Shown piece after piece: positions 3,407 through 31,300 of a stretch of DNA of 64,000 nucleotides. The translations under genes were made by a program, and so were the position numbers. This DNA comes from Dysgonomonas sp. ZJ279 (GTDB lineage: Bacteria; Bacteroidota; Bacteroidia; Bacteroidales; Dysgonomonadaceae), in assembly GCF_011039205.1 (NCBI RefSeq), contig NZ_JAAKEL010000004.1, positions 186,001-250,000 on the forward strand, written 5' to 3'. The notes under the pieces are model-generated. The model ran no database searches and had not been told where the DNA came from. It saw only the letters and a list, made by a program, of their open reading frames with translations. How positions within the stretch are numbered: position 1 is the first letter of the stretch; each line of letters starts with the position of its first letter.

Positions 3407-3609
3407 GTTGTTATATTTAAGTTGATAATAGAGAAGAATTATTTTATGGTGTTTTTAATTATAGATTTAAATTGTAAATATATAAGAAAAATTACAATTT
3501 TAAAAATATTTATTTTAGTGATTAGAAATTATACGATATAGATTTAATTTATGATATTATAATAGACATCTATTTTCTTTAATATATGTTATAAAAAGTA
3601 TAAAAATCC

Positions 3610-3617
3610 TACCTTTG
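3610..3617 (+). promoter_or_regulatory. Putative Bacteroidota -7 promoter element of riboswitch 1 transcript
   Basis: TACCTTTG matches the TAnnTTTG consensus and sits 5 bases before the start of the cobalamin riboswitch. The preceding stretch (3407-3609) is very A+T-rich; I see no gene or clear -33 element in it. Confidence 0.55.
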
Positions 3618-3621
3618 CATC

Positions 3622-3892
3622 TGCTTAGGTGATACAAAAAGATATCCATCTTTTGTATTAAAAGGGAATTCGGTTAGAATCCGAAACAGTGCCCGCTACT
3701 GTGAAACTCTTGTTAAGTTTTGAGCAACCCTCTTGCCACTGTCAGAAACAGTGAACAGTAAACAGTAAACAACAATTTCGTTGATAACTGATGGCTGATG
3801 ACTGATATGATGGGAAGGCGCTCAAAATGGAGTAAGTCAGGAAACCTGCCAGGCAAAATACATTAATTTATGTACTCTCGGGGTCAAGAGTA
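3622..3892 (+). promoter_or_regulatory. Cobalamin riboswitch 1 (upstream of BtuB-like receptor)
   Basis: Conserved B12-riboswitch blocks occur in order: AGGTGAT (3628), AAAGGGAATTCGG-TNAGAATCCG (3661), the hairpin CAGT-GCCCGCT-ACTG (L5, 3687-3701), GCCACTGT (3735), TGGGAAGG (3811) and GTCAGGAAACCTGCC (3836-3850). A downstream hairpin at 3873-3892 (TACTCT/AGAGTA) exposes a CGGGGTCA loop whose CGGG complements CCCG in L5, as expected for the L5-L13 kissing pair. That hairpin lies 34 bases before the start codon, so translational control is plausible. Between GCCACTGT and TGGGAAGG the aptamer carries an extra arm of heptad repeats (3749-3804). Confidence 0.95.
3749..3804 (+). repeat. Heptad-repeat hairpin arm inside riboswitch 1
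   Basis: CAGT units at 3749, 3756 and 3763 (period 7, spacers GAA/AAA) and CAAC at 3770 face GTTG at 3780, then ACTG, GCTG and ACTG at 3787, 3794 and 3801 (spacers ATA/ATG). The loop is the 6-base AATTTC. Every 4-mer pairs with its partner (one G-U), giving four 4-bp helices separated by 3x3 internal loops. Confidence 0.9.
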
Positions 3893-3925
3893 TAAGTTAT
3901 TAACATCTTATTCTATTTATTCTCA

Positions 3926-6109
3926 ATGAAGAAGAAAGTATTTTTTACAGCATTGTTGTGCTGTTTTGTTAATGTTTTATGTGCACAAATCACATTAAAA
4001 GGGAGGGTAGTCGACGAAACTGACCGCCCAATTGCAAATGCGACAGTACGTCTCGAAAAAACGACAATTGGAACAGTTACCAATGCAAATGGTTTTTTTG
4101 AACTGAACAATGTCCCGAATGGGGACTACACTCTAAGAGCTAGTCGTATGGACTTCGAAGCTACTCGTCTAGATGTAAATGGCTCGAAAGAAGATATTGT
4201 ACTTACATTAGTAAAATCATTTCTAAATCTCAATGAAGTTGTTGTTACAGGGACAGGAACACATCGCCGTTCGCAAGAATCGCCTGTTGCAATAGAAGTA
4301 ATATCGCAGAAGGAATTAAGAAATGTGAATATTCCTACTTTTGAGAATGCAATGATTGCTCTTAATCCATCCTTTACATTCAGCCCAAATGCTATGGGTA
4401 CATATATGCAGCTAAACGGTTTAAGCAATAGGTATATTCTTATATTGATAGATGGTAGAAGGCTTGCAGGTGATGTAAGTGGAAATATCGACCTCTCACG
4501 TATCAATATGAATAATGTGAAACGTATCGAAATACTTAAAGGTGCTGCATCGTCTCTTTATGGCTCGGAAGCCATAGCCGGTGTAGTAAACATTATTACC
4601 GACAAGCGTAAAGAGAAAGTTTTCGCATCGAGTAATACACGTTATTCGGAATATGGACAGTTTACTCAAGGTATAAATGTAGATTTGAATCTGGGAATAT
4701 TTTCATCTTCTACGGCATACCAACGGAATCAATCAGATGGATGGCAATTAAACTCGAAAACAGTAGACAGTAAAACAGGCGAACTCGTGGATACCGAAGC
4801 GCAAGCATCCATGCGCTTTTACTCCGATATATTAAGTCAGAAGCTTTCTGTTGCTCCAACAAAACAATTAAGCGTGTATGTGGAAGGTAGTCTTTATGAT
4901 AAAAAATATATACGCGTACCAAGTGTATCAGCATATAATATGCTATACGAAGATTATTCGATCGGTTTGGGTGGTAAATATCTTCTCAAAAATGAAGGTG
5001 TTATCTCATTGGATTTGAATACGGACAACTTCGATTATTCGCAAGTATATATAGCTGATAATACGAAAACCGGAGTCGTAGCCGGAGATGAAGTATTTGT
5101 TCGTCGTCAAAAATACTATAATGCCAATCTGAAAGGTGTATTTAATGCCGGACAATATAATAAAATTTCAGTCGGTACCGAATATAGAATCGATTACCTG
5201 AAAAATGAAACTGATGTAAGAGACGGATCGAAAGATGTTTATACATCAGCTATCTATGCACAGGACGAAATAAGATTGCTGAATAATAAATTACAGTTTG
5301 TACCGGGTATCAGATATGTATATCACGAAACATTCAATAGTAAATTAACACCTAAATTGTCAGCAATGTATACGCTCGATAACGTAAATTTCAGGGCATC
5401 ATATGCAGCAGGATTCAGAGTTCCCGATTTAAAACAGCTTTACTATGAGTCATATGGTACAAAAGAAACTGTTACTGTAGGTAATCTGGACTTAAAACCT
5501 GAAACTTCAAACTATTACTCGATTGGTACCGAATATATCAGTGGTAAATTTACCGCATCGATAAACGGCTACATTAATGAAGTTAAAAACATTATTGAAA
5601 AAGAAAGTGTTACACCATTGCCCGAAGATGTAGAAAATGGTTTTCCAAAGAGAGACCAATATGTGAACAGGGATAAAGCACGTATCAGAGGATTCGATGT
5701 ATCGTTCAACTATTACATTGGCGCAGGCCTTACTGCAGGTGGGGGATATGCTTATGTAAGAGCTAAAAATCTGGAAACAGGAGAAGATCTTCAACGTATA
5801 AGCCGTCATACGGGAAATGTGAATGTAAACTATGCTAAAGATTGGGGATTATTCAGATCAAACTTCAATTTCAACGGACGTCTGCAAAGCAAAAGATATT
5901 TTTCGAACGAATGGGCACGTACATATCAATTGTGGAATTTATCGACAAACCATACATTCAAAAGTATGAATGGTGTTGTACTTGAACCTGGCTTTGGTGT
6001 TGAGAACTTATTTGATTTTGTAGATGACAGACCTTATGGAAGTAGCTATGCTACGCTATCTCCCGGGCGTACATTCTTTGTAAGTTTAGCAATAAAGTTT
6101 AGTAAATAA
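3926..6109 (+). CDS. btuB: TonB-dependent outer-membrane receptor, BtuB-like (cobalamin/corrinoid uptake)
   Basis: 727 residues. Signal peptide (about 1-20), then a carboxypeptidase-regulatory-like domain (about 22-90), a plug domain starting near VVVTGTGTHRRSQESP, and a 22-strand-type barrel ending in an aromatic-rich terminal strand (TFFVSLAIKFSK). It should import a corrinoid across the outer membrane using TonB energy. Location directly behind a cobalamin riboswitch is the main evidence for substrate; the 727-residue size also fits a small-ligand receptor rather than SusC (~1000). The start at 3926 leaves a normal signal peptide. Transcription probably stops in the MITE/terminator region that follows. 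Confidence 0.88.
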   Translation: MKKKVFFTALLCCFVNVLCAQITLKGRVVDETDRPIANATVRLEKTTIGTVTNANGFFELNNVPNGDYTLRASRMDFEATRLDVNGSKEDIVLTLVKSFLNLNEVVVTGTGTHRRSQESPVAIEVISQKELRNVNIPTFENAMIALNPSFTFSPNAMGTYMQLNGLSNRYILILIDGRRLAGDVSGNIDLSRINMNNVKRIEILKGAASSLYGSEAIAGVVNIITDKRKEKVFASSNTRYSEYGQFTQGINVDLNLGIFSSSTAYQRNQSDGWQLNSKTVDSKTGELVDTEAQASMRFYSDILSQKLSVAPTKQLSVYVEGSLYDKKYIRVPSVSAYNMLYEDYSIGLGGKYLLKNEGVISLDLNTDNFDYSQVYIADNTKTGVVAGDEVFVRRQKYYNANLKGVFNAGQYNKISVGTEYRIDYLKNETDVRDGSKDVYTSAIYAQDEIRLLNNKLQFVPGIRYVYHETFNSKLTPKLSAMYTLDNVNFRASYAAGFRVPDLKQLYYESYGTKETVTVGNLDLKPETSNYYSIGTEYISGKFTASINGYINEVKNIIEKESVTPLPEDVENGFPKRDQYVNRDKARIRGFDVSFNYYIGAGLTAGGGYAYVRAKNLETGEDLQRISRHTGNVNVNYAKDWGLFRSNFNFNGRLQSKRYFSNEWARTYQLWNLSTNHTFKSMNGVVLEPGFGVENLFDFVDDRPYGSSYATLSPGRTFFVSLAIKFSK

Positions 6110-8334: not shown

Positions 8335-8342
8335 TATCTTTG
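8335..8342 (+). promoter_or_regulatory. Putative -7 element of riboswitch 2 transcript
   Basis: TATCTTTG matches TAnnTTTG and is placed 5 bases before the riboswitch, the same spacing as at riboswitch 1. Confidence 0.55.
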
Positions 8343-8347
8343 CAACC

Positions 8348-8631
8348 GCTTAGGTGATACTAATGGACAATCGTCTATTGTATTTAAAAGGGAATTCGGT
8401 TAAAATCCGAGACAGTGCCCGCTACTGTAAACTCTTCTTAAGTCTTTGAATAATACTCATACCACTGTCAGAAACAGTAAACGGTGAACAGTAAACAGTG
8501 AACAACAATCTAGTTGATGACTGATGACTGATGACTGATAACTGGTACGATGGGAAGGATATTCAAAGATGGAGTAAGTCAGGAAACCTGCCAAGCAAAA
8601 CAGTAAATACGTATTCTCGGGGTCAAGAATA
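8348..8631 (+). promoter_or_regulatory. Cobalamin riboswitch 2 (leader of the main cob operon)
   Basis: Same blocks as riboswitch 1: TTAGGTGAT, AAAGGGAATTCGG, L5 hairpin CAGT-GCCCGCT-ACTG (8413-8427), CCACTGTCAG, TGGGAAGG (8551) and GTCAGGAAACCTGCC. The expression-platform hairpin at 8612-8631 (TATTCT/AGAATA) shows the loop CGGGGTCA, again complementary to CCCG in L5. The hairpin ends 28 bases before the cbiK start. The similarity to riboswitch 1 extends into the extra arm, so the two probably arose by duplication. Confidence 0.95.
8475..8544 (+). repeat. Heptad-repeat hairpin arm inside riboswitch 2
   Basis: Left units CAGT 8475, CGGT 8482, CAGT 8489, CAGT 8496 and CAAC 8503 face right units GTTG 8513, then ACTG at 8520, 8527, 8534 and 8541. 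All sit at exact 7-base steps around a 6-base loop (AATCTA), giving five 4-bp helices (one with a G-U) separated by 3x3 internal loops. It has one more heptad per side than riboswitch 1. Confidence 0.9.
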
Positions 8632-8659
8632 TTTTATTAACACTTTATTCATTATTATA

Positions 8660-9586
8660 ATGAAAAAAACCTTTTTCATGCTCATGGTATTAGCTTTTTC
8701 TAATGCCCTAGCAGCTCATTCCGGTCCAAATTTTGAAGCCTCCGACATCTTCAAAACATTAGGGAAAGGAGACAAAGTAGCCATATTGATGGTTCACTTC
8801 GGTACCACCCATGCTGACACTCGCGCCTTAACTATCGATGCTATTAACGAAAAAGTAAAAGAAGAATTTCCTAATGTAGAATTTTGTGAAGCATATACTT
8901 CACGTATCGTAGTAAAACGTTTAGGAGAGAGGGGTATTCAAAAAATGAACGCTTCTCAGGCTCTGGAACAATTAAAAGCAGAGGGATACACACACATCTT
9001 AATACAAGCGACTTGTATTATCGATGGGGTAGAGATGGAAGCCTTAAACAACGAAGTGGATCAGATGCGGTCTTCTTTTAAAGAAATCCGTATAGGTGAT
9101 CCGTTATTGTATTCACCACACGACTATGAAAATGTTATAGAAGTATTAGCTCAAAAGAAAGACACATCCACAGCTTATATTTGGATAGGGCACGGTACGT
9201 ACGATTCTTCTACTGCCCAATATGCGATGTTAGATTACATGTTGAAATCGAAAGGGTATAATAACTATTTTGTAGCAACAATAGAGGGTTACCCCGAATT
9301 TGATGATGTATTGATGCGCCTAAATTCGATGAAAGCAAAGAAGGTCGTGCTTGTTCCTTTTCTTTTTGTAGCAGGCGAACATGCTAAAAACGACATTGCA
9401 GAAGACTGGAAATCAGACTTAGAGGAAAAAGGATTTGCTGTAGATGTACACATGGAAGGCTTAGGGCAAAATCCTGCAATACAAGACCTATTTATTTCTC
9501 ACCTTAAATTTATTTCTCACCACCGTAAAATTGGCATTATGAAAAAAAAGGCCATTTATGAAGTAACCGGAGAAAAAATGAAATAA
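8660..9586 (+). CDS. cbiK: Sirohydrochlorin cobaltochelatase CbiK with a signal peptide
   Basis: 308 residues from the ATG at 8660; the frame continues upstream into the riboswitch but that part is not coding. The N-terminus (MKKTFFMLMVLAFSNALAA) is a clear signal peptide. The mature part is a two-lobed class II chelatase: His46 (LMVHFGTTH) near the first strand, and the metal/catalytic histidines His178 (WIGHGTYDS) and His241 (FVAGEHAKND). CbiK inserts Co2+ into sirohydrochlorin or precorrin-2 at the entry of the anaerobic pathway. A periplasmic form is known in Desulfovibrio (CbiKP). It is the first gene after riboswitch 2. A metal-handling rather than biosynthetic role remains possible. 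Confidence 0.9.
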   Translation: MKKTFFMLMVLAFSNALAAHSGPNFEASDIFKTLGKGDKVAILMVHFGTTHADTRALTIDAINEKVKEEFPNVEFCEAYTSRIVVKRLGERGIQKMNASQALEQLKAEGYTHILIQATCIIDGVEMEALNNEVDQMRSSFKEIRIGDPLLYSPHDYENVIEVLAQKKDTSTAYIWIGHGTYDSSTAQYAMLDYMLKSKGYNNYFVATIEGYPEFDDVLMRLNSMKAKKVVLVPFLFVAGEHAKNDIAEDWKSDLEEKGFAVDVHMEGLGQNPAIQDLFISHLKFISHHRKIGIMKKKAIYEVTGEKMK

Positions 9587-31080: not shown

Positions 31081-31280
31081 AAGCCTTTACCGCGAGCTTT
31101 AAACTATTATTTATTGGCAGGTCTTCTGACTTATTCCTTCTACACAACCTTCCCATTCTTAATGAACAGTGGCTTAAGTTTTGTGTAAAAACTTATGGAA
31201 CTTACAGCAGCGGGTCTGTTCAGGATTTACACCTGATTCCCTTTTCATTACTTATCTGGCAAACGCAGACTTGTAACACC
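31081..31280 (-). promoter_or_regulatory. Cobalamin riboswitch 3 (leader of the cbiL operon)
   Basis: On the - strand from 31280 down: GGTGTTACAAG, AAAAGGGAATCAGGTG, GTAAATCCTG, CAGACCCGCTGCTG (L5), GCCACTG, TGGGAAGG and GTCAGAAGACCTGCC (to about 31113). A hairpin at 31081-31100 (AAGC/GCTT) has GCGG in its loop, complementary to CCGC in L5, so the kissing pair is kept. The loop between GCCACTG and TGGGAAGG is short, without the heptad arm seen in riboswitches 1 and 2. The hairpin is about 87 bases from the cbiL start, farther than in the other two. Confidence 0.95.
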
Positions 31281-31292
31281 AAAATTCTAGTG

Positions 31293-31300
31293 CAAATATA
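31293..31300 (-). promoter_or_regulatory. Putative -7 element of riboswitch 3 transcript
   Basis: TATATTTG on the - strand matches TAnnTTTG and lies 13 bases before the riboswitch core, inside the 52-base gap after the KAS III gene. Confidence 0.5.

Follow-up and report, generated by a model that had tools for sequence, protein, structure and literature searches.

Cobalamin riboswitches in the window

The window, that is, the whole 64-kb stretch of Dysgonomonas sp. ZJ279 DNA that was analyzed, contains three cobalamin riboswitches identified with the Rfam covariance model RF00174 (Table 1). The genes found downstream of riboswitches 1 and 2, coding for a TonB-dependent receptor and a cbiK-like cobalt chelatase, fit a control of both by B12. 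As the listed open reading frame (ORF) of the chelatase begins within riboswitch 2, its start (ATG 8660) was picked by eye. Riboswitches 1 and 2 carry a B12 box (AGTCAGGAAACCTGCC) 3' of the P6 extension, together with a CCCG motif in L5 and a CGGGG motif in the loop of a downstream hairpin. These hairpins, with the loop CGGGGTCA, are likely the P13/L13 kissing-loop partners of the CCCG in L5, to judge from the two motifs. In core, B12 box, P6 extension, and probable L5-L13 kissing loop, these two riboswitches resemble the RF00174 class with a P6 extension, as it is described in passages of PMC11260477 and PMC9911696. Since the aptamer core is intact and a likely kissing-loop partner is present, we can assume that the riboswitches bearing the arm described below most likely work normally.

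Riboswitches 1 and 2 contain a long arm (83 and 97 nt, respectively) flanked by the motifs CCACTG and GGGAAGG. The Rfam alignment places the insertion at the outermost hairpin of the P6 extension (P11 in the usual numbering). An earlier note on this DNA had described, in both plus-strand riboswitches, an arm with CAGT units in its 5' strand and ACTG units in its 3' strand, each at exact 7-base steps, closed by CAAC-N6-GTTG and forming four helices in riboswitch 1 and five in riboswitch 2, with substitutions (GCTG, CGGT) that keep G-U pairs. The re-read sequence agrees with all of this, and the note's coordinates and base changes are exact to the base. Riboswitch 3, said to lack the arm, indeed has the short hairpin CCACTGTTCATTAAGAATGGGAAGG in its place.

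Table 1. Riboswitches, heptad arms, and adjacent genes in the window
Feature	Position	Strand	Basis
Cobalamin riboswitch 1, aptamer	3609..3867	+	RF00174, 82.8 bits (gathering score, 31.5)
Heptad arm of riboswitch 1, CCACTG..GGGAAGG, 83 nt	3736..3818	+	Predicted ladder fold, -22.6 kcal/mol, z = -3.6
5' heptads of riboswitch 1, CAGT x3 (3749, 3756, 3763)	3749..3766	+	Sequence
Arm closure of riboswitch 1, CAAC and GTTG	3770-3773 and 3780-3783	+	Sequence
3' heptads of riboswitch 1, ACTG 3787, GCTG 3794, ACTG 3801	3787..3804	+	Sequence
Hairpin with loop CGGGGTCA, 3' of riboswitch 1 aptamer	3871..3894	+	Sequence, local fold
Gene following riboswitch 1, TonB-dependent receptor	3926..6109	+	Pfam PF00593, PF07715
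Cobalamin riboswitch 2, aptamer	8335..8609	+	RF00174, 70.8 bits (gathering score, 31.5)
Heptad arm of riboswitch 2, CCACTG..GGGAAGG, 97 nt	8462..8558	+	Predicted fold, -25.8 kcal/mol, z = -3.2
5' heptads of riboswitch 2, CAGT 8475, CGGT 8482, CAGT 8489, CAGT 8496	8475..8499	+	Sequence
Arm closure of riboswitch 2, CAAC 8503 and GTTG 8513		+	Sequence
3' heptads of riboswitch 2, ACTG x4 (8520, 8527, 8534, 8541)	8520..8544	+	Sequence
Hairpin with loop CGGGGTCA, riboswitch 2	8611..8632	+	Local fold
Gene following riboswitch 2, cbiK-like cobalt chelatase	8660..9586	+	Pfam PF06180
Cobalamin riboswitch 3, short terminal hairpin CCACTGTTCATTAAGAATGGGAAGG, no heptads	31099..31298	-	RF00174, 103.8 bits (gathering score, 31.5)

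Predicted folding of the arms

The arm is predicted to be a two-sided ladder of 4-bp helices. When the whole leader is folded, its minimum-energy structure contains the ladder in both cases, and the two arms fold better than their dinucleotide shuffles (z = -3.6 and -3.2 for riboswitches 1 and 2, with 0/200 and 1/200 shuffles as good). Four pieces of other arms were folded in isolation, and the ladder appeared in L013 (z = -3.5) and L298 (z = -1.9, with 8/200 shuffles folding equally well). In L011 and L244, whose pieces stop short of the arm's 3' end, the conserved CACTG takes the place of the 3' strand as the partner of the outermost 5' unit. With the core intact, the arm may be regarded as a tolerated extension, perhaps a mildly stabilizing one.

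The spacers previously described (AAA/GAA against ATG/ATA) were found as such. The 3x3 internal loops attributed to them call for a refinement, as the middle spacer base is often Watson-Crick paired. This is the case in 142 of the 219 spacer pairs of the 52 arms gathered from all sources, so many of these loops are better seen as two 1x1 mismatches flanking one pair.

Heptads in the genome of ZJ279

The genome (4.10 Mb in 58 contigs) has six RF00174 matches, and the arm is found in four of them (83, 97, 83, and 97 nt). Contigs C10 and C35 contain one of these each, and the window contains the other two. A loop of the CAACAA..GTTG type is common to the four arms, with one base altered in some. 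The pattern CAGTNNNCAGT-gap-ACTGNNNACTG gave four matches in the genome, each seen on both strands, versus none with the reversed control, so the heptad pattern is not a product of chance; owing to its GCTG, the arm of riboswitch 1 is missed, and the matches fall in the other three. Exact three-unit ACTG heptad arrays gave nine matches versus one in the reversed control. By reading the sequences, we assigned seven of the nine to the four riboswitch arms and two to position 281710 of contig C47, the only site of such an array in the genome outside a riboswitch. With five sites in all, the many dispersed intergenic copies that would be expected of repeats like the short tandemly repeated repetitive (STRR) sequences were not found in this genome.

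The site in C47 (281710-281734) is a one-sided TAACTGA-type array that ends a few bases 5' of the ATG of a carotenoid-synthesis-like gene, a position relative to the gene start like that reported for the TAACTGA repeats of Beggiatoaceae. At least two tandem exact TAACTGA units are present there and in the riboswitch of C35; such a tandem is lacking in the arms of the window, which contain the variants TGACTGA and TGGCTGA. Downstream of the C35 riboswitch (L013, 173681-173957), no ORF of at least 100 amino acids begins within about 780 bases.

Occurrence in Dysgonomonas and beyond

RF00174 has 161 matches in 25 Dysgonomonas genomes, from which 146 distinct riboswitches were parsed after leaving out identical sequences, those missed by the B12-box/GGGAAGG pattern, and matches not listed or retrieved. 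The length of the terminal hairpin is bimodal among the 146, with 99 below 35 nt, 9 of 35 to 59 nt, 30 of at least 60 nt, and 8 without a closed hairpin; the arms of riboswitches 1 and 2, with their 83 to 97 nt, differ from the bulk of the genus. CAGT/ACTG heptad arms were found in 27 of the 146, 25 by script and two (L289 and L299, from the eight without a closed hairpin by script) by eye; two hairpins below 35 nt that passed the script's heptad criterion were excluded from this count. The repeats are two-sided in 26 of the 27 arms when one mismatch is allowed. At the same hairpin, AGCT-core heptads were seen by eye in L261 and L268.

A scan of GTDB genomes for two-sided heptads before GGGAAGG, which selects two-sided arms by design, returned 78 loci, and 40 cores in 38 of these loci are followed by a B12 box with up to three substitutions. 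The B12-box loci belong to Dysgonomonas, Paludibacter, Bacteroidales, Bacteroidota, Arcicella, Alkalitalea, Natronoflexus, a Cytophagales metagenome-assembled genome (MAG), and MAGs labelled Tannerella and Prevotella (L120 and others, the latter corresponding to Dysgonomonas). A few come from Nitrospira-like, deltaproteobacterial, and unclassified MAGs, and L109 and L180 are irregular. The arm therefore recurs across Dysgonomonas and beyond and is not peculiar to ZJ279. It does so in two orientations, roughly reverse complements of each other (among 53 arms, type A accounts for 27 and type B for 25, with one tie). The terminal hairpins of the second riboswitches of two loci contain other heptad cores by eye, GTGA/TCAC in a Nitrospiraceae MAG (L165) and a GTCAA-like one in a Paludibacter MAG (L164).

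The strict two-sided pattern was found in 3 of 393 genomes from an even draw of the order, including this genome and one other of the genus, so arms are rare at that level. A phylum-wide search for hairpins of 51 to 81 nt with an exact box matched 6 of 395 genomes, none of them with CAGT heptads; as the pattern was too short to recover even the arms of ZJ279 (0 matches), it is no gauge of rarity. We also considered the heptads as a plasmid feature and discarded this, as riboswitch 2 used as a query retrieved two plasmid records that match portions of the aptamer other than the arm (query positions 5-102 and 49-101).

Coupling of the two strands

The 52 arms exclude L180 and the long non-CAGT arms L214, L261, L028, L017, and L268, which were kept apart. 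Since L184 and L158 are one riboswitch trimmed differently, the coupling test was redone on 51 distinct arms. In 32 of the 51, both sides have the same number of units, when 18.3 such arms are expected by shuffling, and none of 20,000 shuffles reached 32. By script, the two counts are no more than one unit apart in 45 arms and further apart in 6, the most clearly unequal being L161 of Alkalitalea (three units left and seven right) and L142 (two and five), which look like intermediate or runaway states. The proposal that tandem heptads have been kept as a fold is supported, and the numbers on the two sides are coupled, although they are not always equal.

Pairing of the cores was counted over all 52 arms, the L184/L158 duplicate included, and these counts depend on predicted folds and related sequences. 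Among 876 core pair positions (219 unit pairs), 790 are consensus Watson-Crick pairs. The 86 changed positions still pair in 41 cases, 28 as one-sided G-U pairs and 13 through changes on both sides (for example, CAGC/GCTG and TAGT/ACTA), and 45 are broken, which makes the pairing constraint a loose one. A bias toward substitutions that keep the pair was considered as well and is weak (right strand, 19 ATTG plus GCTG versus 8 ACTA plus ACCG; left strand, 16 TAGT plus CGGT versus 13 CAAT plus CAGC). Cobalamin riboswitches L304 and L305, in two other Bacteroidota genomes of the same taxonomic class (G571 and G774), have by eye an apparent one-sided run of TTAGANN heptads in the terminal hairpin, so pairing seems not to be obligatory everywhere.

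The arms of this genome have RAA spacers on the left and ATR spacers on the right, mostly uniform along each strand, and the complementarity of spacers across the helix is confined to the middle A-U. With spacers that resemble their neighbors along the strand and do not complement those opposite, a new unit has apparently been copied from its neighbor on the same strand. For the same reason, the growth "in both arms together" suggested by the earlier note is unlikely if understood as a single event of copying across the hairpin, and a perfect palindrome produced by template switching is also disfavored.

Riboswitch arms and dispersed arrays

The same heptads do exist outside riboswitches, a point raised by the earlier note, in dispersed arrays in relatives and, in this genome, at C47. 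Three-unit heptad matches were counted genome-wide against the reversed control and were abundant in three relatives (394 versus 10 in G006, 183 versus 2 in G019, and 126 versus 15 in G007), while they are few or absent in the remaining ones. In 20 stretches of G006, the one genome sampled, picked around listed matches, we found 41 heptad clusters, 39 of them outside ORFs. None of the 41 has an exact inverted CAGT pair within 60 bases, and four have an inverted partner when one mismatch is allowed. The like-for-like set, made up of the 21 arms of the genus in which one side has an exact array of three units, has an exact partner in 16 arms, against 0/41 arrays of G006 (Fisher p = 7e-11), and a one-mismatch partner in 20 arms, against 4/41 (Fisher p = 2e-11).

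From the 40 loci of the GTDB scan without a B12 box, we ran 18 against Rfam, and none reaches the gathering score for a cobalamin riboswitch. These 18 are two-sided CAGT heptad sites by design, some of them clear hairpins, from Pedobacter, Spirosoma, Cyanobacteria, and others. As CAGT heptad hairpins occur outside known RNAs in other phyla, two-sidedness is not purely a riboswitch trait. Four such hairpins (L112, L123, L134, and L160, labelled Longimicrobium, Anaerolineaceae, Acidobacteria, and Spirosoma) have spacers that by eye are largely complementary, unlike those of the riboswitch arms.

Similarity within and between genomes

Among 26 arms of the genus, identity within a genome is 0.81 for the arms versus 0.68 for the rest of the riboswitch (27 pairs), and between genomes it is 0.72 versus 0.65 (298 pairs). 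The within-genome excess of the arm over the rest has a label-permutation p value of 0.004, to be read, like the other counts of arms, knowing that arms and genomes share kinship and are not independent. In the most extreme pairs, the arms are 0.93 identical when the rest is 0.55, and 0.89 when the rest is 0.54. Five arms from other genera compared with the four of this genome gave 0.64 to 0.82, a baseline without close kinship. Gene conversion anchored on CCACTG and GGGAAGG would account for such pairs, although the similarity of arms within a genome could come instead from recent common descent; the identities of arm and core are correlated (r = 0.44).

A second heptad insert

A heptad-derived insert was found near the start of the P6 extension in 20 of the 146 riboswitches of the genus (e.g., L097, L100, L183, L188, L207, L215, L287, L288, L298, and L299). 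It lies between CTGTAAGCTC and AAAGTCTTTGAACAA, often as TTTTCAGTGAGCAGTTAACAGTCATCAGTTAACA.., and is complementary to the arm's 3' strand in the same riboswitch. The insert is present in 15 of the 27 arm-bearing riboswitches versus 5 of the 119 others, one of which has an AGCT-type arm. The predicted duplex between insert and right strand has a mean of -28.7 kcal/mol, versus -23.1 for the arm itself, and with the right strands of other riboswitches the value is -29.7 kcal/mol. Most inserts are predicted to fold on themselves via GTTAAC.

Origin and persistence of the arms

We consider it probable that a dispersed heptad family of the STRR or TAACTGA kind has repeatedly colonized the outer hairpin of the P6 extension, growing by duplication within each strand, kept two-sided by the fold, and spreading within genomes. 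The units of the arm would be members of a short tandem repeat family, with an ACTG core and a 3-base spacer, dispersed between genes in several Dysgonomonas relatives and in other bacteria. Its arrays would multiply inside each strand by slippage or unequal exchange. In the outward-facing hairpin, it would be mainly the pairing, two-sided versions that persist, because the riboswitch must still fold. Once there, the arm could pass between riboswitches of one genome by gene conversion at its conserved flanks. A bolder version, in which structured RNAs act as safe harbors where a heptad parasite persists in two-sided form, moves between riboswitches by gene conversion, and is domesticated as a ladder, with the second insert perhaps swapping strands and tuning the switch, is speculative and on the whole rather doubtful.

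That the ladder is a functional regulatory module selected in the clade, either a protein-binding platform or a timer of folding or transcription, seems unlikely. Arms recur in several lineages, their sides are coupled in number, and they persist here despite the scarcity of dispersed copies (four of the five heptad sites are riboswitches), all of which would suit a function. However, 119 of the 146 riboswitches of the genus and two of the six in this genome have no CAGT/ACTG arm. Furthermore, other cores and both orientations, with different RNA mismatches, occupy the same site, which argues against a sequence-specific binding motif. A conserved RNA-binding motif was disfavored on these grounds, as the orientations differ in their mismatches and AGCT ladders replace CAGT in L261 and L268.

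Simple shared descent would require one ancestral armed Dysgonomonas riboswitch whose duplicates inherited the arm, with neither spread nor repeated colonization. The shared loop of the four arms of this genome and the correlation between arm and core identity point this way, but arms that are about 90% alike sit in riboswitches that are otherwise only 54 to 68% alike (e.g., the pairs L018/L018 and L244/L244), and arms also occur in other families and phyla, so we regard this explanation as very unlikely. A single mobile palindromic element of the REP or MITE kind, copied into the hairpin either way round, would explain the two roughly reverse-complementary orientations and the likeness of arms in one genome; against it are a length that is not fixed (78 to 115 nt in the 52 arms), nonpalindromic spacers, and the one-sided dispersed arrays of G006, which make it highly improbable. 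Finally, a long-range second switch, in which the second insert competes with the arm for its 3' strand, is extremely improbable even with the association of insert and arm and the more stable predicted duplex in its favor, as the insert pairs as well with the right strands of other riboswitches and so gives no sign of coadaptation, mostly forms its own predicted hairpin, and is absent from the sequences of riboswitches 1 and 2.

The interest of these arms is that heptads act as pairing partners within a regulatory RNA that has been studied in depth, and that they do so in many copies, in either orientation, and with several core sequences. They offer a natural experiment on how a repeat enters a folded RNA, on the joint lengthening of the two strands of a helix, and on whether the periphery of a riboswitch evolves by exchange between paralogues. 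They also explain a length variation that the Rfam model handles as a plain insertion, and they suggest that simple repeats can lodge in structured RNA provided that pairing is kept.

Relation to other heptanucleotide repeats

Heptanucleotide repeats of cyanobacteria and a few other lineages are known mostly as intergenic direct repeats. STRR sequences are heptanucleotide repeats, and their presence in RNase P RNA from heterocyst-forming cyanobacteria has reportedly been described by Vioque in 1997. There, as in the riboswitch arms, a structured RNA harbors short tandem repeats, although the RNA and the phylum are different. A closely related sequence is the TAACTGA heptamer, which forms intergenic tandem arrays of direct repeats in Beggiatoaceae, Cyanobacteria, and five Bacteroidetes and which alone would have no particular RNA structure, according to the main text of MacGregor 2015 (PMC4679880). 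These repeats and the arms have in common an ACTG core in a 7-base unit, but in the Dysgonomonas arms two heptad strands pair inside a riboswitch; neither "riboswitch" nor "AACAGT" occurs in the main text of that paper. Dispersed families of four to five tandem heptanucleotides, one class being drawn as a strand that loops back, are described for Geobacter metallireducens in passages of PMC2700814; their sequences differ from those of the arms, and these passages give no riboswitch location. Among the matches listed when heptad or tandem repeats were looked up together with riboswitches or Bacteroidota, a search scope mostly outside the subscription literature, there was no earlier report of heptad riboswitch arms. 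In Dysgonomonas sp. UBA7710 (G006), the intergenic regions (L331-L350) resemble mosaics of several repeat families, in which AGATACA/AGATACG-type heptads, ACTG heptads, and GTTACCTTT 9-mers follow one another in a like order at many places.
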